Below, one piece after another: positions 237-36,040 of a stretch of DNA of 64,000 bases. The notes under the pieces are model-generated. The model was not told the DNA's origin. It saw nothing but the letters and a program-made list of their open reading frames with translations, and did no database searches. The position numbers and the translations under genes were made by a program. Every line of letters begins with the position of its first letter. Position 1 is the first letter of the stretch. The stretch spans positions 62,001 through 126,000 of the forward strand of contig CANEYR010000002.1 of the NCBI GenBank assembly GCA_947444055.1, in the 5' to 3' direction. The DNA comes from Planctomycetota bacterium. GTDB taxonomy: Bacteria; Planctomycetota; UBA1135; UBA2386.

Positions 237-626
237 ATGGAAATCGTCGGGAAGAAGAGTCAAGGACTGTCGGTCACCGCCCTTAAGGACGACAAGACCG
301 TCATCATCTCCTTCAACGATCGCAGTCTGAACTTCTACGTCACAGACTCCTTGAAGGAGTCGCTCAAGGAGACGATCAACGGCAAGATCGAGGAAGGTTA
401 CCAGCACTTCGTGCTGAACCTCGACAACGTCAAGATCATCGACTCGTGCGGCGTTGGCCTGATCATTGTGGCCAACAACGTGACGTCGTCGCGCAACTGC
501 AAGCTCTACCTGAGCAACATCAAGCCGTTCATCGTGAAGATCTTTGAGATCATGCGGATCTCGAAGCACTTGGCGATCTACGACAAGGAAGACGACGCGT
601 TGGCGGCGATCAAGGGCGGCAAGTAG
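237..626 (+). CDS. STAS-domain protein, anti-sigma factor antagonist type
   Basis: A 129-residue single-domain STAS protein of the SpoIIAA/RsbV type. The conserved loop reads IIDSCGVGLI (residues 67-76). Ser70 lies where SpoIIAA carries its phosphorylated serine (DSSG in that protein, DSCG here). The length is only slightly above the family norm of about 110. Such proteins bind anti-sigma kinases or act inside partner-switching complexes in the cytoplasm, and the switch is serine phosphorylation. The start is supported by GAGG 6 nt upstream. It is followed within 70 bp by a histidine kinase, a response regulator and a degenerate HD-GYP protein, so it probably belongs to one signalling unit. 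No partner Ser/Thr kinase or phosphatase is visible in the window; it may be encoded upstream. Confidence 0.85.
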   Translation: MEIVGKKSQGLSVTALKDDKTVIISFNDRSLNFYVTDSLKESLKETINGKIEEGYQHFVLNLDNVKIIDSCGVGLIIVANNVTSSRNCKLYLSNIKPFIVKIFEIMRISKHLAIYDKEDDALAAIKGGK

Positions 627-695
627 CCCTTCGCTGACTTCCGTCGTGAGCACACGAGGTCGCTTCGTTGTGCCTTCCTTCGGCCGCCGCGAACC

Positions 696-2255
696 ATGGC
701 TATCAGTGCGAGCATCCTGATCGTCGAGGGCGACGGCCGTAGCAGCGGCAAGCTGCGCGATCGCATCCTGGCGTCCGGCGGCAGCGTCACGGTTGCGCCC
801 ATGGTTTCGTCGTTGGCGACGATCCAGGCTGGCTCCTGGGACGCGGTGGTGCTGCCGTGCCCGGAGACTCCGTCGGCACTGGCCGATGCCGCGTTTGAGA
901 ACGGTACCGAGCTGCTGTTGTGGGCCGAGGCGGCCCCGAGCGCGGCCCAGTTGATGCTGGCCATGCGTGCTGGGTGCCTCGGAGTGTTGTCCACAGACAC
1001 CGACCCAAGCGCACTGCAAGAGTTGCTCACGTGCGTGCAAGGGCGGCGCCGACGCAGCGCGCACGCGCGGGAAGAGACCCGCCGCTTGCGCTACCAAGCG
1101 GACGATCTGCGGCTGCGCTGTTCGCGGCAGTCAGAGCGTTTTCAAGAGAACCAAGAGACCTACTTCCTCGACCTCTCCCGGATGATGACCATCATCACCA
1201 ACATCATGGATGGCATCGTGTTCGTCGATCGTGGTGGCAACGTCACGTTGATGAACCCGGTGGCCGAGGACTTGCTTGGCGCCAAGTCCTTCGTCGCGAT
1301 CGGCAAACCGATCGCTGCCTTGCAAGGACGCCGCGACCTGCTGCAGACGATTGCGACGGATCATGCGCGCATGACCACGCAGAAGGAGGTTGCCCAGACT
1401 GTCGAAGTGCACCACACCGAGCAGGATCTGCTCTACATCAAGTGCATGACGAGCCGCGTGCACGACTACCGCGGCGAGCCCGCCGGTGTGCTGACGGTGT
1501 TGCGGGATGTGACCGCCGAGTTCAAGACCGACCAACTCAAGAACCAGTACCTGTCGATCGTCGCCCACGAGCTGCGCACGCCGCTGACCGGCATCAAGAC
1601 GTTCGCCACCATGATGACCAAGGGCACGCTTGGCGCGCTCAGCGACCGTCAGATGCGTGTCTGCGAGTCGATTCGCGAGCAATCGATCCGGCTCGAACAC
1701 CAGATCGACAAGTTGATCAACCTCGGCAATCTGGAGTCGGCCGACTACGGGCAAGACCGCGAGGTGTTCTCGGTCACAGATTTGGCGACCGGCCTGCTGG
1801 TGCCGTTCGAGCAGCCGGCGCGCGATCGCCGGATCGCGCTCACGCTCGCGATCGACGAGAACAACGAGGACCTCTTCGCCGACCGAGCGGATTTGCGTCG
1901 GGCCTGCCAGGCGCTGGTCGAGAACTCCGTCAAGTTCGCTCGCGATGGTGGGCAAGTGGCCGTTCGCATCGAGCGTTTGGGCTCCAGCCTGCGATTCCGG
2001 GTCGCCGACGACGGCATTGGCATCGACCCTCGCTACCACCGGCGCATCTTCGAGAAGTTCTTCCAGGTGGAAGACCCTCTTACGCGCCACCACGGTGGGG
2101 CTGGTCTTGGCCTGTTTGTCGCAAAAGGGATCATCGAAGCACACGGAAGTCGCATCGAAGTCTCCAGCCAACTGGGTCAAGGTGCCGATTTCTCCTTTGT
2201 CCTGCCACTTCATCGGCAGGGCGTGGTCGCCGCTGTCGCATCCGCAGTCAAGTAA
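696..2255 (+). CDS. sensor histidine kinase with N-terminal pseudo-receiver and PAS domain
   Basis: A 519-residue soluble histidine kinase with no membrane segment. Residues 5-115 resemble a response-regulator receiver fold (ASILIVEGDG at the first strand), but the expected phospho-acceptor Asp is replaced: the strand reads DAVVLPCP, with Pro54 at that place. A PAS domain follows (about 155-275, MDGIVFVDRGGNVTLMNP). Next come HisKA with HELRTPL (phospho-acceptor His291) and HATPase_c with the N box ENSVKF (about 409), G1 box DDGIGID (about 439) and G2 box GGAGLGL (about 468). The gene ends in TAATG, sharing one base with the start of the response regulator, so the two are translationally coupled and very probably a cognate pair. 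The ligand of the PAS domain is unknown. Confidence 0.88.
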   Translation: MAISASILIVEGDGRSSGKLRDRILASGGSVTVAPMVSSLATIQAGSWDAVVLPCPETPSALADAAFENGTELLLWAEAAPSAAQLMLAMRAGCLGVLSTDTDPSALQELLTCVQGRRRRSAHAREETRRLRYQADDLRLRCSRQSERFQENQETYFLDLSRMMTIITNIMDGIVFVDRGGNVTLMNPVAEDLLGAKSFVAIGKPIAALQGRRDLLQTIATDHARMTTQKEVAQTVEVHHTEQDLLYIKCMTSRVHDYRGEPAGVLTVLRDVTAEFKTDQLKNQYLSIVAHELRTPLTGIKTFATMMTKGTLGALSDRQMRVCESIREQSIRLEHQIDKLINLGNLESADYGQDREVFSVTDLATGLLVPFEQPARDRRIALTLAIDENNEDLFADRADLRRACQALVENSVKFARDGGQVAVRIERLGSSLRFRVADDGIGIDPRYHRRIFEKFFQVEDPLTRHHGGAGLGLFVAKGIIEAHGSRIEVSSQLGQGADFSFVLPLHRQGVVAAVASAVK

Positions 2256-28529: not shown

Positions 28530-31487
28530 TCACGGCGTCTGCGTGAACATGTTGATGAACGGGTTCGACGCGACGAACGTCGTGAACCCAGCATCCACCG
28601 TCAGCACTTGGCTGTAGTAGAAGATGCCAACCGCCGACGGCACGTTCGGCGCCGTGAACGGGAACGACGCGTTGCCACTGCCGTCCGTCGAGCCACCGAG
28701 CAGCGTGATGGTGCCACCGACCTGCATGGTCGGGAAGCCTGGCACGCTAGTCGGGCCGGCGGTGTCGGCGACGGCCAGCAAGAACGGCCGCGAGTTGCCG
28801 GGCGTCAGGATCGTGGCGTTCATCAGCGTGCCTTGCACCGCTTGCTCCGGCAGCATGCGCAGCTCGGCATCGATCGTCGGCACAATGGTCTCGCCGAGTT
28901 CGACGTCGTCGATTTGCCAGCCGCCGAGGTTGAGGCCAGCATCGCTGACCAAGCGCCACTCGAGCTGCACCGACGGGTTGTTGTCGGCCATCGGGATCGC
29001 GTACTCGACCGATTGCCAGGAGGTGTCCAGGTGGTTGCCATTCAAGGCGTTGACCCAGATCTGCACGCCGTTCACCGAGACCGTCGCTTGGTCGAAGATG
29101 GCTTCTTCCACCGACAGCCAACGCTTGAAGCGCAGCTTGACGCCGAACTTGCCCGTGCAGTCGAGGATCGGCGAACGCAAGAACTCGTTCACGCTGTTCG
29201 GGTAGCGGCCATTGAAGGTGCCGTTGCCGAGGTCGGTCGAGTAGACGTTGAGCCCTGAGGTCGCGGTCTGCGGGTCGATCCAGGTGACGCCGCTAACGGT
29301 GCTGGTCTTGCCGGCGGGGTCGCCGAGTTGCCAGTCGTTGGTGAGGCCCGACGTGAGGCCGGTGGTCCAGCCGACGGCGCCGGTGTCGAAGTTCTGCAGG
29401 TGGAAGCCGGCGAAGGTGCCGCCGTCGATCGAGTAGAAGATCTCGCCCGCCGCTGGGAAGCGCACGATCGGGCCCGTGCTGTGCACGGCTTCGATGTGGT
29501 AGCTCACCGCGCCGACCGAGACACCCGGCAGCATGGCGACGTAGCCGTTGACGGCGCCGTTGCTGTGCATGTTGCGGATCAGGTTGCCAGCGCCACCGTT
29601 GTAGTGCAGGCGAACTTGCGTGAACGAGCCGCTGATCGGCGTCACCGTGGCGGTGACCTTGCGCGGCGACACCTGTTGCGCGGTGTTCGTCAGCGCCGTG
29701 TGCGTGATCGAACCGACTTGGATCGCTGGGAACGGGATCGCCTTGTCGTTGGCTGCGCCGCTGAGGTGCGCATAGTTGGGCGTGCCGTTCAGCAGGTTGC
29801 CGTCGTCATCGTCAGCGATGAACACTTCGCGCACCGCGTCAACACGGGTCGTGGCGTTGGCCGCGATCGAGCTGATGACGATGTCGTTCGAGATCGCGAT
29901 GGCACTCGGCGTGCCGAAGGCCGTCCGCAAGCGTTCGCGCAGGCGCCAGGCAAAGCCCATCCACACCTGACCAGCGCCGTGCGGCGAGGTCGTTGAGTAC
30001 GGATAGAGGAACGCGTTGTCGCCGCGACGCAGCGCGACGTTGGCCGTCTGGAAGCCAGAGCCGAGCAGCGGGCTGTCGACCTGAAACAGGCCCCAGATGT
30101 CGCCCCAGCCTTCGCTCAGGCCTTCGGCGTTGCTGTTGAAGATGCCGCCGTAGCGCTCGTCGATGCCGTGGCCCCATTCGTGCGCGGCGACGGTCGAGAA
30201 CGCGGTGTTCGAGCAGCCACCGCCGGCTTGGTAGAAGTTGATCGTGTTGCCGGTGTAGTAGGCATTGCACGTGCTGGCGATGTTGGCGGTCACCGAGATG
30301 GCGCTCGCCGTGGTGAATTGCGCGGAGTTGCCGAGGATGCTGCGGCCGTACTCGTTGGTGCGATCGATCCAGTAGGTCAGGTTGGTGTGCGCCGACTCAT
30401 TGGTCGTGGCCGCTGCCGTCAGCAATTGGATCGTCGTGTTGACGCCCGGGTTGACGGCGAAGACGCCGGCCGGAGCGTTGGCGCCCGAGATCGGGTTGTG
30501 GTGGCGACCATCGAGGGCGCCGACCGTGATGTTCACCGCCGCGGCGATGTCGATCGTGAACTGACCGTTGATGTCCGTGGTGACCGTGCCGACACCGGGC
30601 ACGTTGAGCACGACGCCAGGCAGTGGCGTGTTGACCAGGGCGGCGAAGGCATCGATGCCGACGTTGGTCCAGCCCATCAGCGTCACCGTCGTCAGGACGG
30701 GCGGGGCCGTGACCTTGGCGGTTGCGTTGACGGCATGCGTGGTGGTCGAGCAGCCGGCCATGCCGCACTCGTGCTTGTCGTTGTGGAAGCTGAGCACGGC
30801 GCCCGTCTGCGCGTCGACGTAGTAGCGGCCGATGGGGCCAACGCCTTGCGCGTTGACGTTGCTGATCGGCACTTCCCAAGCCAAGAACACCGGCGTCGCC
30901 GCCGTGGCACTCGTGTCACCCCAGATCACCAAACGCGGGCGGCCAGCCGGAGCTGGTTGCGGCACGTTGGTCGGATCGGCGCCGACGGCTTGCCAAGCGG
31001 CGGCCACGGCCACCAATTCGCCAACGGCAGGTACGGTGTTGAAGTTGACGGCGATCGGCCAAGCGCGACTGCCGAGCATGGCGACCACACCGCTCATGTT
31101 GATGCGGATGTCGGCGCGCCCGTCGATCACTGGCAGGCCACGGTAGTACTGATCGAACGTGAACGTCCAGCTGCGGCCCATCCGCGAGCCGATGCTCTCG
31201 CGGAAGTCCGACGTGCCGAGGCCGAGCAATTCGTGGTGCTGTGCTAGCAGTGCATTGGCATGCACGCGTGCCGCGGCCAACGAGTTCTCACCCCAACCTG
31301 CGATCGGCAAGCCGGTGCCATAGATGGCGCTCGGCGTACCAGTCGCGGGGTGCCACTGCACAACCCACTCGCCGCCGCGTTCGGCGCGGAATGCGGCCAA
31401 GGCGGTCTTGGGGGTTGCACCGTCAGCGGCGGGGTCTTGAGCAGACGAAAAGGCAGCGAGACTTGCTGCGAGCGCAATCATTCGCAT
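28530..31487 (-). CDS. secreted metallopeptidase, M36 (fungalysin)-like
   Basis: A 985-residue exported zinc protease. A signal peptide (MRMIALAASLAAFSSAQD) is followed by an N-terminal inhibitory propeptide (about 35-240) and then a catalytic domain with HEWGH (His436, Glu437, His440) and a downstream GLSEGWGD (Glu459), the usual M36 arrangement HExxH...E. Nearby Asn-rich and CNAYY stretches also fit. C-terminal parts contain a bacterial Ig-like or CBM-like module (YSIDGGTFAGFHLQNFDTG) and a last beta domain shared in kind with other secreted proteins of this genome. It likely degrades extracellular protein. It is flanked downstream by a hairpin and upstream by a 331-bp gene-free stretch. 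Confidence 0.85.
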   Translation of the reverse strand: MRMIALAASLAAFSSAQDPAADGATPKTALAAFRAERGGEWVVQWHPATGTPSAIYGTGLPIAGWGENSLAAARVHANALLAQHHELLGLGTSDFRESIGSRMGRSWTFTFDQYYRGLPVIDGRADIRINMSGVVAMLGSRAWPIAVNFNTVPAVGELVAVAAAWQAVGADPTNVPQPAPAGRPRLVIWGDTSATAATPVFLAWEVPISNVNAQGVGPIGRYYVDAQTGAVLSFHNDKHECGMAGCSTTTHAVNATAKVTAPPVLTTVTLMGWTNVGIDAFAALVNTPLPGVVLNVPGVGTVTTDINGQFTIDIAAAVNITVGALDGRHHNPISGANAPAGVFAVNPGVNTTIQLLTAAATTNESAHTNLTYWIDRTNEYGRSILGNSAQFTTASAISVTANIASTCNAYYTGNTINFYQAGGGCSNTAFSTVAAHEWGHGIDERYGGIFNSNAEGLSEGWGDIWGLFQVDSPLLGSGFQTANVALRRGDNAFLYPYSTTSPHGAGQVWMGFAWRLRERLRTAFGTPSAIAISNDIVISSIAANATTRVDAVREVFIADDDDGNLLNGTPNYAHLSGAANDKAIPFPAIQVGSITHTALTNTAQQVSPRKVTATVTPISGSFTQVRLHYNGGAGNLIRNMHSNGAVNGYVAMLPGVSVGAVSYHIEAVHSTGPIVRFPAAGEIFYSIDGGTFAGFHLQNFDTGAVGWTTGLTSGLTNDWQLGDPAGKTSTVSGVTWIDPQTATSGLNVYSTDLGNGTFNGRYPNSVNEFLRSPILDCTGKFGVKLRFKRWLSVEEAIFDQATVSVNGVQIWVNALNGNHLDTSWQSVEYAIPMADNNPSVQLEWRLVSDAGLNLGGWQIDDVELGETIVPTIDAELRMLPEQAVQGTLMNATILTPGNSRPFLLAVADTAGPTSVPGFPTMQVGGTITLLGGSTDGSGNASFPFTAPNVPSAVGIFYYSQVLTVDAGFTTFVASNPFINMFTQTP

Positions 31488-31818
31488 GGGAAGACAGTCC
31501 TTGGGCGCTGGGCAGCGTCGTCATTGAGGCTGAACCAGCATGAGTCGCAGGGGCGGCGACCCGGCAGAGAGAATCAGGCGGGGGGAGTATGGCCCGGGCC
31601 GATGCGACGTCAACGGGGCCAGGCTGGCGTTCTTGTCCCATGCTCGTCGAGTTCCGCGCGGATTCTCTCGGCCGCATGGAGCGTTGCGCGACGAGTGAAC
31701 GGCTGCCCGCTGCGTTCTCGAATCAAGATCGCGACCGGCCGCGTTCACGCAGGCGGTGGTCTGGCGGGACGCTGGCGGTGCAGGCGGCGACCGAAGATGA
31801 GTGTGCAGGCGCGCATGT
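31488..31818. other. gene-free stretch, 331 bp
   Basis: Lies between the start of the M36-like protease gene (minus strand) and the end of the flagellin gene (minus strand). Frames on both strands look like shadows of neighbours and show no ribosome site, RNA gene or repeat that I can support. It should contain the protease promoter. Confidence 0.5.
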
Positions 31819-32622
31819 TCACCCCAGCAAGTCGAGCAGTTTGGGACGGCTGCTCGCGGCCCGTTGCCCAGACACCTGCAGGCTGAACAGGATGCGATCG
31901 CGGGTCTGCTCCGCAACCGCCTGCGCCACGTCCACGTCCTCAATGCGCGAACGGGCGGCTTCGGCAGCGGCTCCCGACGCGGCGAGCTGCCGGCCGTGAC
32001 TGGCCAGTGCGTTGTCGGCGGCACCGAGCCGCGCTCGCGAACTGGCGAGCGTCGCGCCAGCCGCATCCAACGCCTGCATCGTTGCCGGATCGGCAACCGA
32101 CCTGCCAGCGACTGCTAACGTCGAAGCGCGTGCATCGGGCAAGTCGAGCGAGTGCTCGCCGCCACCGCCGTCGCTGATGACCACCGCATTGCCGCCGCTC
32201 GCCGAACCATCGAGCAGCTGGGTGCCGGCGAACGACGATCCGCCGGCCGTCTGATCGAGGCCCAGCGCCAACTGGTCGTACTCCTGTTGGATCGCGTCGC
32301 GATCGCTCGCCGACAGCGTGCCGTTCTGCGCCTGCACGGTCAGCTCGCGCATGCGCCCGAGGCTGTCCTGGCTCGATTGCAGCGCCCCATCGGCGGTGCG
32401 CAGCAGACTCTGCCCATCGGCGACATTGCGTTCGCCCTGCGCGCTGCCGCGCACCTGAGCCTCCAGGCGTTTGGCGATCGCCAACCCAGCCGGGTCGTCG
32501 GCAGCGGTCGCAATGCGCTTGCCGCTGGCCAGCCGCTGCGAACCGCGCTCGCGCCGCCGCTGGATTTGGTCCATCTGCCGAAGGCGCGCGTCATCGCCAT
32601 GCGATCGAATGCTCAGGCTCAT
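31819..32622 (-). CDS. fliC: short flagellin
   Basis: A 267-residue flagellin holding only the conserved D0/D1 ends. The N-terminal half has QRLASGKRIATAADDPAGLA (about 34-53), TADGALQSSQDSLGRMRELTVQA in pieces, and GTLSASDRDAIQQEYDQL. The C-terminal half has SRIEDVDVAQAVAEQTRDRIL and ends KLLDLLG. The middle variable domain is nearly absent. The start is ATG at 32622 with GGAG 5 nt upstream. No other flagellar gene (hook, export, FliS, FliD) is present within the window, so it is an orphan here. It is divergent from a short sigma factor gene, with a hairpin between them. Confidence 0.9.
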   Translation of the reverse strand: MSLSIRSHGDDARLRQMDQIQRRRERGSQRLASGKRIATAADDPAGLAIAKRLEAQVRGSAQGERNVADGQSLLRTADGALQSSQDSLGRMRELTVQAQNGTLSASDRDAIQQEYDQLALGLDQTAGGSSFAGTQLLDGSASGGNAVVISDGGGGEHSLDLPDARASTLAVAGRSVADPATMQALDAAGATLASSRARLGAADNALASHGRQLAASGAAAEAARSRIEDVDVAQAVAEQTRDRILFSLQVSGQRAASSRPKLLDLLG

Positions 32623-32704
32623 CGTTGCTCCAGGTCCAAGTGCGGCCACCCCACGTCGCTGCACCAACCCATCGATCGGAGCGAAGGTGCCTGCCCTTGA
32701 ATCC

Positions 32705-32725
32705 GCGGTCTCCTTCCGAGACCGC
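32705..32725. promoter_or_regulatory. inverted repeat in the flagellin / sigma factor divergent region
   Basis: GCGGTCTC-CTTCC-GAGACCGC, an 8-bp perfect stem with a 5-nt loop. Read as flagellin leader RNA (minus strand) the loop is GGAAG, 83 nt before the flagellin ATG. It could be an RNA-binding site (CsrA-like, GGA in a loop) or a protein operator. This is only a structural observation. Confidence 0.4.
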
Positions 32726-32794
32726 CACAGGCCAAGTCGCCGACGCCGTCGAATTTTCCTGCACCCGCAACCCAGGGTCGTGGATTCTGGTGGC

Positions 32795-33265
32795 GTGGCC
32801 GAACCTGCGACCATTTCCCGAGACGACGTCGTGCGCCTGGTGCAGCGGCACCAAGTGCAGGTGTGGCGCTACGTGCGCTTCCTTGGCGCCTCGGCAGAAC
32901 TGGCGGACGATCTCGTGCAAGAGACGTTCTTGCAGTTGTTGCGGGCGCCGTTCGCGGAGCGCTCGGAGGCCGCGACCGTCACCTGGCTGCGCATCGTGGC
33001 GCGCGGCCTCTACGTGCGGTCGTTCCGGCGGCAGCCGTTCCAACTCGCGGAACTCGACGACATCGAAGCGGCGTGGAATGGCTTTGCTGCCGACGATGGC
33101 GGCGAGCAGCGAGTCGCGCGCTTGCGTCGCTGTGTCGAGCAACTGACTGGCCGCGCCCGCGACGTCGTGCGTTGGCACTACGAGGAACGTTGTTCGCGCA
33201 CCAACATCGGCGAACGGCTCGGCATCGGCGAAGACGGCGTCGCACGCGCGAGCCGCGGCCCGTAG
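32795..33265 (+). CDS. ECF-type sigma-70 family factor, short C terminus
   Basis: About 156 residues. The sigma-2 region is clear (VVRLVQRHQVQVWRYVRFLG, then ADDLVQETFLQLLR), a short linker follows, and sigma-4 starts (LTGRARDVVRWHYEERCSRTNIGERLGIG). The reading frame stops at EDGVARASRGP, in the middle of the DNA-recognition helix, where relatives continue with about 15 further basic residues. A one-base shift near 33240 would continue as HARAAARRLRRS, which resembles that missing end, so a frameshift is possible. The start is probably GTG 32795; GTG 32780 is an alternative. It is divergent from the flagellin gene and sits 12 bp before the M14 peptidase gene. No anti-sigma gene is adjacent. 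Confidence 0.75.
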   Translation: MAEPATISRDDVVRLVQRHQVQVWRYVRFLGASAELADDLVQETFLQLLRAPFAERSEAATVTWLRIVARGLYVRSFRRQPFQLAELDDIEAAWNGFAADDGGEQRVARLRRCVEQLTGRARDVVRWHYEERCSRTNIGERLGIGEDGVARASRGP

Positions 33266-33277
33266 ATTGCGCCGCTC

Positions 33278-36040
33278 ATGCGCGCCATCGCTCCGTTCGT
33301 TCTCGCCAGCGCTGCGTCGCTCTTGGCGCAGGTTCCGGACCCGACCCCGTTGCCAAGCCAGCCGTTTGCGCCCGGGGTGACCTACGACGCGAAGATCCCT
33401 TCGCTCGACCAGGTCACCGGCCACGCCTGGGGTACCGAAGTCTCCGCGCACAGCGATGTCGAGAAGTACCTGGCAGCGCTCGCCGCGGCCGCTCCCGAGC
33501 GCGTGCGGCTGGTGCAGTACGGCGCCAGTTGGGAAGGCCGCAAGCTGTGGTACGCGATCGTTGGTTCGCCCGCCAACATCGAACGCTTGCCGACCATTCG
33601 CCAAGGCATGCAGCGCCTCGCCGATCCACGCGGGGCGGCGGATGCCGAGCTCGACGCCTTGCTGAAGGACTTGCCCGCGGTCGGCTGGCTCGCCAACTGC
33701 GTGCACGGCGATGAACCGTCGGGCACCGACGCCGCCTTGCTCGTGCTCTACCACTTGCTTGCCGCGCAGAACGATCCGGTCGCCACCAAGGTGTTGGCGG
33801 AATGTGTGGTGTTGGTCGATCCGTTGCAGAACCCCGACGGTCGCGATCGCTTCGTGCACAGCACGCGGGCGGCGCGCGGTCGCTGGGCGGATGCGACGCC
33901 GCTCGGGGCCGAACACAGCCAGCCGTGGCCTGGTGGGCGCGTCAACCACGCGCTGTTCGACATGAACCGCGATTGGTTCGCGATGTCGCAGCCAGAGACG
34001 CAGGCGCGCGTGCGCGCGTTCCTCGATTGGTGGCCGCTCGTCTATGTCGACTTGCACGAGATGGGTGGCAACTCGAGCTACTACTTCGCGCCGCCGGCCG
34101 CACCGGTGCATGCCGAGATCACCGTCGGCCAGCGGGAATGGCTGACGCGCTACGGCCAGAACAACGCGCGCTGGTTCGATCGCTTCGGCTTCGACTACTT
34201 CACGCGCGAGGCCTACGACAGCTTCTATCCAGGCTATGGCGAGGGGTGGCCGACCTTCCACGGCAGCATCGGCATGACCTTCGAGATGGCCAGCGCGCGC
34301 GGCCTCGTCTACCGCCGGCGCGACGACAGCTTGCTGTTCTATCGCGATGGTGTGCACCGACATTTCGTGGCGTCGATGGGCACGCTCGAGACGTTGGCGA
34401 ACGGTCGCGACGGGGCGTTGCGTTCGTTCTTGCAGCATCGGCGGGCTGGCATTGCCCGCGGCGAACGTGGCGCCGTGAAGGCGTGGGTGTTCCCGGATCG
34501 CGGCGACCGCACGCGGCTGTCGCGGCTGATGAACTTGCTGCTGGCGCAAGGCATCGAGGTGCATCGCGCGACGGGTGAGCTCACGAGTGCGCAGAGCCTG
34601 CCGCTGCTCGGCGGCGTCGCGAGTGCGCAGACGTTTCCGATCGGCAGCTACGTGGTGTCGGCGTCGCAACCGGCGAGCACGTTGGCGACGGTGTTGCTGC
34701 AGCCGCACTTCGAAATGGACCCGGCCTTCTTGACCGAGCAGAAGCGGCGCGAGGGCCGTCGCCGCGACACCGAGTTTTATGACCTGACGGCGTGGGCGTT
34801 GCCGTTGTTGTTCGGCGTCGATGCGTGGACCGCGGCCGAGTCTGTGCGCGGCGAATTGACGCTGCTGCGCGCGGGGGATGCCAACGCCAGTGCGGCGGCA
34901 CTGCGCGAACAGCCGCCGTTGGTTGCGTACGTGATGGCCTGGGGGCAGAACGGTGCCGCGGCGATGCTGGCGGAGTTGCTGCGGCTCGGCGTCAAGGCGC
35001 GTTGCATCGACAAGCCGTTCACGCTCGATGGCGTCAGCTACCCAGCCGGTTCGTTTGTCGTGAAGGTCAAAGATCAGCCAACCGACTTGCATGCGCGTCT
35101 GCGCGACTTGGCGAAGGCGCACGGTGTCACGCCGTACTGCGCGGACAGCTCGTGGGTGGAGTCGGGGCCGAACTTCGGCACCAATGAGGGGCTGACGCTG
35201 AAGTTGCCGCGCGTGGCCATGGCGTGGGACCGGCCGGTGTCGGCCAACTCGGCGGGCTGGGTGCGCTTCCTGCTTGAGCAGCGCTACGGCATTCCGGTCT
35301 CGCCGCTGCGCACGCACGAACTCACGCGGGTGGATCTCGATCGCTTTACGGTGCTCGTGTTGCCAGAAGGCGGCGGCTACGCGAACGTGCTCGGCAAGGC
35401 GGGAGCAGAGGCGATCAAGGGCTTCGTCGAACGCGGTGGGGTGCTGATCACGCTCGGTTCGGCGTCGCGCTGGTTGATGGACAAGGACGTCGCGTTGTTG
35501 GCGAGCGAAGCGGAATCGCGGCAGAAGCCGAAGGGCGACGACAAGGACGCCAAGAAGGACGCGCCCGCCAAGGAAGGCGAGCCACCGGTCACGCCACCGA
35601 CGACGCCACCGGCGACGACCGATAAGACCGACAAACCGGAAAAGCCGTTCGACTACGACGCCGCGGTGCGCCCGGAGAAGGAATCACCCGCGAGCACCCC
35701 GGGCGCCATTCTCGCCGTGACGATCGACCGCGACCACTGGCTTGGCTTTGGCTACCAAGGCTCCGCGAGCGTCGTGCACGACAGCTCCAACATCTTCACG
35801 CCGGTCAAACTCGACCGCGGCACCAACGTCGCGATCTACGAGAAGGGCGAGCAGTTGCTGCGGGCGGGGTTCGTGTGGGACGAGAGCAAGCGGCAGTTGC
35901 CGCAGAAGGCCTACCTCGTGCACCAGCCGCATGGACAAGGCCACGTCGTCGCCTTCGCCGAGGATCCGAATGTGCGCGGCTTCGCCGATGGACTCAACCT
36001 GCTGCTGCTCAACGCCGTGTTGCTGACGGCGGGGCGATGA
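33278..36040 (+). CDS. secreted zinc carboxypeptidase, M14 family
   Basis: A 920-residue exported M14 peptidase. After the signal peptide (MRAIAPFVLASAASLLAQ) the catalytic domain has the zinc ligands His143 and Glu146 (HGDEPSG) and His260 (VYVDLHEMGG). NPDGRD (185-190) and DMNRDWF (228-234) are typical of this family. A catalytic Glu is probably within TFEMASARG (about 335-343). The long C-terminal half (about 400-920) includes a non-catalytic glutamine-amidotransferase-like fold (VLVLPEGGGYANVLG) and a Lys/Pro-rich linker (about 745-800). It likely degrades peptides in the periplasm or outside. It follows the sigma factor gene by 12 bp, so the two may be co-transcribed. Confidence 0.9.
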   Translation: MRAIAPFVLASAASLLAQVPDPTPLPSQPFAPGVTYDAKIPSLDQVTGHAWGTEVSAHSDVEKYLAALAAAAPERVRLVQYGASWEGRKLWYAIVGSPANIERLPTIRQGMQRLADPRGAADAELDALLKDLPAVGWLANCVHGDEPSGTDAALLVLYHLLAAQNDPVATKVLAECVVLVDPLQNPDGRDRFVHSTRAARGRWADATPLGAEHSQPWPGGRVNHALFDMNRDWFAMSQPETQARVRAFLDWWPLVYVDLHEMGGNSSYYFAPPAAPVHAEITVGQREWLTRYGQNNARWFDRFGFDYFTREAYDSFYPGYGEGWPTFHGSIGMTFEMASARGLVYRRRDDSLLFYRDGVHRHFVASMGTLETLANGRDGALRSFLQHRRAGIARGERGAVKAWVFPDRGDRTRLSRLMNLLLAQGIEVHRATGELTSAQSLPLLGGVASAQTFPIGSYVVSASQPASTLATVLLQPHFEMDPAFLTEQKRREGRRRDTEFYDLTAWALPLLFGVDAWTAAESVRGELTLLRAGDANASAAALREQPPLVAYVMAWGQNGAAAMLAELLRLGVKARCIDKPFTLDGVSYPAGSFVVKVKDQPTDLHARLRDLAKAHGVTPYCADSSWVESGPNFGTNEGLTLKLPRVAMAWDRPVSANSAGWVRFLLEQRYGIPVSPLRTHELTRVDLDRFTVLVLPEGGGYANVLGKAGAEAIKGFVERGGVLITLGSASRWLMDKDVALLASEAESRQKPKGDDKDAKKDAPAKEGEPPVTPPTTPPATTDKTDKPEKPFDYDAAVRPEKESPASTPGAILAVTIDRDHWLGFGYQGSASVVHDSSNIFTPVKLDRGTNVAIYEKGEQLLRAGFVWDESKRQLPQKAYLVHQPHGQGHVVAFAEDPNVRGFADGLNLLLLNAVLLTAGR

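Follow-up and report, generated by a model that had tools for sequence, protein, structure and literature searches.

A divergent flagellin paralogue with a conserved core and altered ends, probably a minor flagellar protein, in an uncultured lineage of Planctomycetota

Flagellin diversity is treated in PMC7018530, and several described systems are close to the gene discussed here. Beside its true filament flagellins, Vibrio vulnificus has extra flagellin-like proteins, FlaE and FlaF, whose secretion runs through FlhA and which are not found in filaments; its six proteins share about 53-75% identity and are encoded in two regions together with other flagellin genes (PMC6692518). Caulobacter crescentus FljJ is likewise a diverged paralogue beside several structural flagellins, with 49% identity to them, forming no filament alone, placed nearest the hook, and promoted in its expression by CtrA (PMC7591256). 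Azospirillum brasilense has a small minor flagellin, FliC2, encoded near the gene for the extracytoplasmic function (ECF) sigma factor RpoE6, which controls it (PMC12826043), and in flagellinolysin a metallopeptidase is brought together with flagellin by insertion into it (PMC5595980). Here, we examine a lone flagellin gene in a 64,000-nucleotide stretch (the window) of contig CANEYR010000002.1 of a Planctomycetota bacterium (GCA_947444055.1; lineage UBA1135, UBA2386).

In contrast to the Vibrio proteins, the product of this gene is only 37% and 39% identical to the canonical flagellins on contigs C3 and C51 of its own genome, and the gene stands alone. Unlike the Azospirillum arrangement, the neighbouring sigma gene is truncated and shows no tie to the flagellin, and, unlike flagellinolysin, the metallopeptidase is a separate neighbour with its own promoter-like sequence. 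On balance, we favour the view that the product is a minor, conserved paralogue of flagellin, expressed with the flagellum and exported by it, that does not build the main filament.

31819-32622, minus strand: divergent flagellin paralogue, an intact open reading frame of 267 codons (Pfam, position counts, tree, and the ratio of nonsynonymous to synonymous substitution, dN/dS)

At 267 amino acids, the protein is too short for a D2/D3 insert, and, as expected of a bacterial flagellin, both terminal helical domains lie above their curated Pfam cut-offs: Flagellin_N at residues 15-140 (E 4.5e-27, 95.2 bits against 26.6) and Flagellin_C at residues 182-246 (E 5.1e-8, 33.6 bits against 23). A longer frame reaches back to 32814; the ATG at 32622 is favoured because it is preceded by GGAG and agrees, by eye, with the starts of relatives. 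Identity as FlgL was rejected, the TIGR02550 score being 96.1 bits, below the cut-off of 127.2, next to 237.2 bits for the genome's own FlgL on contig C196 and 92-93 bits for canonical flagellins. An AlphaFold2 model shows long helices (predicted template modelling score 0.50), and its top Foldseek matches are filament flagellins (query TM-score, TMq, about 0.66); this predicted structure supports membership of the flagellin family only.

The search for flagellin homologues covered 61 genomes, 42 of which had a match at E <= 1e-10. Removal of duplicates brought 118 flagellin-like open reading frames down to 96; the tree comprises 92 of these, with FlgL, a piece from contig C14 and two other short pieces set aside. 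Eleven of the 92 flagellins form a clade of their own with support of 100/100, separated from the remaining 81 by a branch of length 1.87, which midpoint rooting divides into 0.23 and 1.64. The window protein shares 43-69% identity with its ten relatives in the clade and about 35-45% with canonical flagellins. The clade contains a first subclade of seven members (G000, G003, G004, G007, G033, G016 and G024), a second of three (G010, G018 and G020), and G055, although its inner order and depth are unsure because the bootstrap was unsettled and the program warned of long-branch attraction and of unusual sequence composition in most of the 11.

Within the order, a clade flagellin was found in 11 of 154 genomes at E <= 1e-42, with at most 16 candidates scored per genome, and all 11 of these genomes also have canonical flagellins. 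Beyond the order, the search was limited to a short-pattern scan of genome contigs, which recovered seven loci, two of them clade members. Near relatives lie on two planctomycete contigs of metagenome-assembled genomes, SXPB01000123.1 (69% identity) and JAEUHV010000275.1 (67%). We met no description of this clade in the flagellin literature consulted, which is no proof that none exists. Partial flagellin-like reading frames with unusual N-termini were also seen beside canonical flagellins in G003 (L101, 996-1295) and G033 (L130, about 1435-1780).

What sets the clade apart lies chiefly at the ends of the protein. Canonical flagellins mostly start MGLRVNTNIASxNAQR and end ILQQAxISxLAQANxQPQxALxLL, and the 11 clade members differ from this pattern. 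Taking as signature positions those conserved to 95% or more across 79 canonical rows (90 rows used, two N-terminally cut rows omitted; D0 and D1 limits approximate and set by us), the window protein keeps four of 11 positions in the N-terminal part of D0 (D0-N) and five of 12 in its C-terminal part (D0-C), and 30 of 46 and eight of 12 in the corresponding parts of D1. Averaged over the 11 members, the share kept is 31% in D0-N and 41% in D0-C, compared with 68% in D1-N, 65% in D1-C and 63% for the middle, and the near-invariant canonical residues N6, N8, A14, Q15 and Q268 are kept by no clade member with a residue there. Conserved D0 signatures at both ends, by which a canonical filament flagellin would be recognised, are thus lacking in the window protein. 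The preliminary description held that the D0/D1 ends are kept in 267 residues, which stands for the length and for much of D1 and fails for D0.

The gene is under purifying selection, which is looser than in canonical flagellins. Pairing the window gene with G004 gives a dN/dS of 0.298 by the NG86 method, and with G003 0.307 (0.19 by YN00); the G003-G004 pair gives 0.219 (NG86) and 0.146 (YN00), whereas four canonical pairs range over 0.055-0.124 (NG86) and 0.016-0.045 (YN00, where run). By subregion, the G003-G004 value (NG86) is highest in the middle, at 0.369, and since it is 0.264 in D0-N and 0.133 in D0-C, D0 is constrained in the clade too, only differently.

Promoters for sigma28 read TAAAG-N15-CCGAT. 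A TCAAG-N16-CCGAT box begins 78 bases before the flagellin ATG, and we take TCAAG/CCGA boxes of this kind to resemble sigma28 promoters.

32675-32700, minus strand: putative sigma28-type promoter TCAAG-N16-CCGAT (box in 10 of 11 clade members; canonical dyads)

The pattern TCAAG-N14-18-CGA[ATC] occurs upstream of 10 of the 11 clade genes (100 shuffles: mean 0.18, maximum 2) and of 14 of 83 canonical genes (mean 1.95, maximum 8), and a looser pattern in 39 of the 83 canonical upstream regions (mean 6.56, maximum 13) and seven of the 11 clade ones (mean 0.64, maximum 3). All ten clade boxes share a single spacing, TCAAG-N16-[CT]CGA. Among spaced 4-mer pairs counted de novo in 80 of the 83 canonical upstream regions (FlgL and two short pieces omitted), TCAA-N16-CCGA and CAAG-N15-CCGA were among the joint first, each in 22 of 80, while the best pair in 15 shuffles reached nine. 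For the sigma28 box, a TAA[AG]-type spelling was tried and rejected, being found in one of the 83 canonical upstream regions and in no clade member. Possible signs of a FliA regulon in the window genome are TCAAG-N16-CCGAT, one base wider than the canonical form, and two FliA_WhiG matches above cut-off, on contigs C27 and C147; the flagellin probably carries a flagellar promoter.

The machinery that such a protein would use is encoded elsewhere in the genome, which spans 5.35 Mb in 237 contigs, is 89.7% complete, and holds the window as part of contig C2. As the preliminary description had proposed, we looked genome-wide for further flagellins and flagellar genes. Five Flagellin_N matches were found: the canonical flagellins on C3 and C51, one on C14 that runs off the contig, the window gene, and C196, the last being FlgL. 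Rod/hook matches (Flg_bb_rod) were obtained on C196 and close to the end of C7, FlhA (FHIPEP) on C27 and FliS on C124. A nearly identical start of a FlgN-like protein is encoded where C7 ends and where C196 begins, and for this reason the two contigs probably join into one flagellar cluster.

That the gene is an orphan without flagellar neighbours is borne out insofar as C2 yields no match to Flg_bb_rod, FHIPEP or FliS, both above-cut-off FliA_WhiG matches lie off C2, and reading the gene calls for the window and for C2:1-60000 by eye showed no flagellar gene. The stated absence of hook, cap, chaperone and export genes holds for the rod/hook family, FlhA and FliS; the cap protein FliD was not searched for. 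The isolation itself is no mark of anything special, because the canonical flagellins of C3 and C51 stand alone too, with non-flagellar neighbours (gene calls, by eye), and flagellins commonly stand singly in this genome; the C14 flagellin, at its contig end, likewise has no flagellar neighbour on the readable side (gene calls, by eye).

Taken at its fullest, the minor-paralogue reading would run as follows. A FliA-type sigma factor would transcribe the clade flagellin with the other flagellins from TCAAG-N16-CCGAT, and the flagellar type III apparatus would export it. The D0 ends of flagellin line the inner tube of the filament, and because most D0 signature positions are changed, the altered ends would most likely prevent assembly into the main filament, leaving the protein to serve as a minor subunit, for example near the hook, or to be released outside the cell. 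The earlier suggestion of a minor filament protein is plausible, with a separate, faster-evolving clade, an altered D0 and presence only alongside canonical flagellins in its favour.

Several points weigh against this reading. A clade member was not found in many flagellated relatives, among them G001, G005 and G006. The ten clade boxes are not uniform (CCGAT in four, CCGAA in three and TCGAT in three), and G055 has none; CAAG-N16-CCGA occurs in seven of 11 clade and one of 80 canonical upstream regions, and CAAG-N15-CCGA in none of the 11. The TCAAG spelling was first spotted in clade upstream regions and then checked in canonical ones, kinship among clade members inflates the count, and the region upstream of the genome's own C3 flagellin lacks the pattern. 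Because TCAAG-N15/16-CCGAY occurs 103 times in the window genome, with 61 in a backward control, the box is no proof by itself. The AlphaFold2 model, built from three sequences with a predicted local distance difference test (pLDDT) score of 65.7, is poor and too weak for judging how the D0 helices pair.

Downstream of the flagellin lies a metallopeptidase gene.

28530-31487, minus strand: large, probably secreted HEXXH (M36-like) metallopeptidase (synteny, distribution, weak NCBIfam M36)
31586-31614, minus strand: TTGAC...CATACT sigma70-like promoter of the peptidase gene (alignment of 13 upstream regions)

The peptidase has a weak NCBIfam M36 match (7.9e-6), with the HEXXH motif and signal peptide recognised by eye, and no Pfam match at E <= 0.05. 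The 13 aligned peptidase upstream regions have TTGAC and a -10 element NATA[CA]T in common. At E <= 1e-60, 41 of 46 genomes contain homologues, among them genomes lacking flagellin, and often in several copies. In six of the seven first-subclade members, the flagellin gene is the one immediately before this peptidase gene on the same strand, and in G024 two genes intervene; in G007 the gene caller missed the flagellin, whose position comes from the homology search. In all three members of the second subclade a Peptidase_M28 gene follows downstream in line, 48 bases away in G018, behind an opposite-strand reading frame in G020, and at about 0.5 kb in G010. Neither peptidase was found within the stretch read in G055, and flagellin is absent at all 11 further peptidase loci examined. 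A partnership between the two genes is a weak, post hoc proposal. Near the G055 flagellin (L059, 14001-18001) stand STAS, sensor-kinase and enzyme-I-like genes, whose homologues on C2 (window 237-2255) lie some 30 kb from the window flagellin.

On the other side of the flagellin, a sigma gene and its surroundings appear rearranged.

32760-32786, plus strand: TGCACCC...GGATT element before the sigma gene, its probable promoter (alignment of nine upstream regions)
32795-33265, plus strand: ECF sigma factor cut inside region 4.2 (Pfam; alignment with three relatives)
33278-36040, plus strand: M14 carboxypeptidase gene, set beside the truncated sigma gene by an apparent deletion (Pfam; blastn gap of about 4.9 kb against G004)

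The sigma factor matches Sigma70_r2 (2.8e-12), and its r4_2 score of 23.7 bits is under the cut-off of 25.7. The blastn alignment with G004 breaks off near 33241 and picks up again near 33268, having skipped about 4.9 kb of G004; this skipped part holds an anti-sigma gene, a gene resembling pseudouridine synthases (by eye) and one for a PKD-domain protein. A deletion may have cut the sigma gene and removed the anti-sigma gene, an assembly error being the alternative. The anti-sigma label rests on position and on the sequence by eye, no Pfam match being found at E <= 0.05; homologues occur in 23 of 46 genomes, with no match in the window's own 89.7% complete genome, and in G007 only the C-terminal part of the gene remains beside an intact flagellin. 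All nine sigma upstream regions share GCACCC (TGCACCC in eight), followed by GGATT in eight and GGCTT in G022. On the flagellin strand, the 11 clade upstream regions (300 bases; 112 in G033) contain neither this element nor a promoter of the peptidase type. Flagellin and sigma genes are directly divergent in G000, G003 and G016, and sigma and peptidase face each other without a flagellin in G005, G008, G011, G022 and G025. An extra reading frame, membrane-protein-like by eye, lies between flagellin and sigma gene in G004 (L054, 9972-11630).

32705-32725, no strand assigned: inverted repeat GCGGTCTC-N5-GAGACCGC, a possible operator (core computed; full arms by eye)

The repeat core, GTCYC-N3-7-GRGAC (N5 in the window), stands 22-23 bases before the TCAAG box in six of the seven first-subclade members, with a variant, seen by eye, in G007; it is found in none of the four other clade members and anywhere in seven of 80 canonical upstream regions. 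In G005, GTCCC-N5-GGGAC lies between peptidase and sigma gene (L141, between 11937 and 12274), where there is no flagellin. Because of this copy, the repeat may belong to the sigma gene, or the G005 copy may be the trace of a lost flagellin.

Within the minor-paralogue reading, a tentative version is that the protein is exported by the flagellum yet stays outside the filament and acts in the matrix or at surfaces, as a released flagellin homologue like Vibrio FlaE and FlaF (PMC6692518). The loss of most D0 signature positions at both ends speaks for it, as does the gene for a probably secreted metallopeptidase that follows the flagellin on the same strand in 10 of 11 members, not in every case as the next gene; the M36-like enzyme, however, has a sigma70-like promoter of its own and the wide, flagellin-independent distribution given above. 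More speculative still is the idea that the lineage turned a flagellin into a non-filament protein, dismantling D0 as the polymerisation end but retaining much of D1 and a flagellar-type promoter, and that it is released via the export gate, possibly partnering the downstream metallopeptidase, M36-like or M28 according to subclade. A regulatory role like that of FljJ, in which a hook-proximal protein would bind FlbT and, through its cytoplasmic pool, repress translation of other flagellins, has a precedent in that diverged paralogue (PMC7591256) and a weak hint in the genome's own FlgL, a junction protein, which reaches 80.6 bits with the clade profile and 59.3 with the canonical profile, but many relatives with canonical flagellins appear to lack the gene, and we regard this role as improbable.

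About as unlikely is an ordinary structural flagellin that merely evolves faster: family and length class are the same, and flagellins with two inner domains only are common (PMC10256154), but the D0 positions near-invariant in the canonical set are mostly lost throughout the clade (mean kept 31% and 41%). The preliminary description had thought of regulation by the sigma factor opposite, after the manner of RpoE6 and FliC2 (PMC12826043), and the directly divergent placement in three genomes fits that idea, but a truncated sigma factor, an anti-sigma gene unmatched in the genome, sigma-peptidase pairs that do without a flagellin, clade upstream regions devoid of the sigma element, and the intact G007 flagellin beside a remnant of the anti-sigma gene make it highly improbable. 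We give equally little credence to a relic heading for loss. Looser selection, patchy presence and a sigma neighbour that is itself broken would suit such a fate, yet none of the 11 genes has an internal stop, dN/dS of 0.15-0.31 is well below 1, the box is kept in 10 of 11, and FlhA, FliS, FliA-type and rod/hook genes are present, whereas a relic had been envisaged for a genome without other flagellar genes.

The clade represents a flagellin group with a conserved core and non-conserved polymerisation ends in uncultured bacteria. If its members are released rather than assembled, secretion through the flagellar gate would have an independent example here, and the clade would offer a natural experiment on the D0 residues that filament formation requires.
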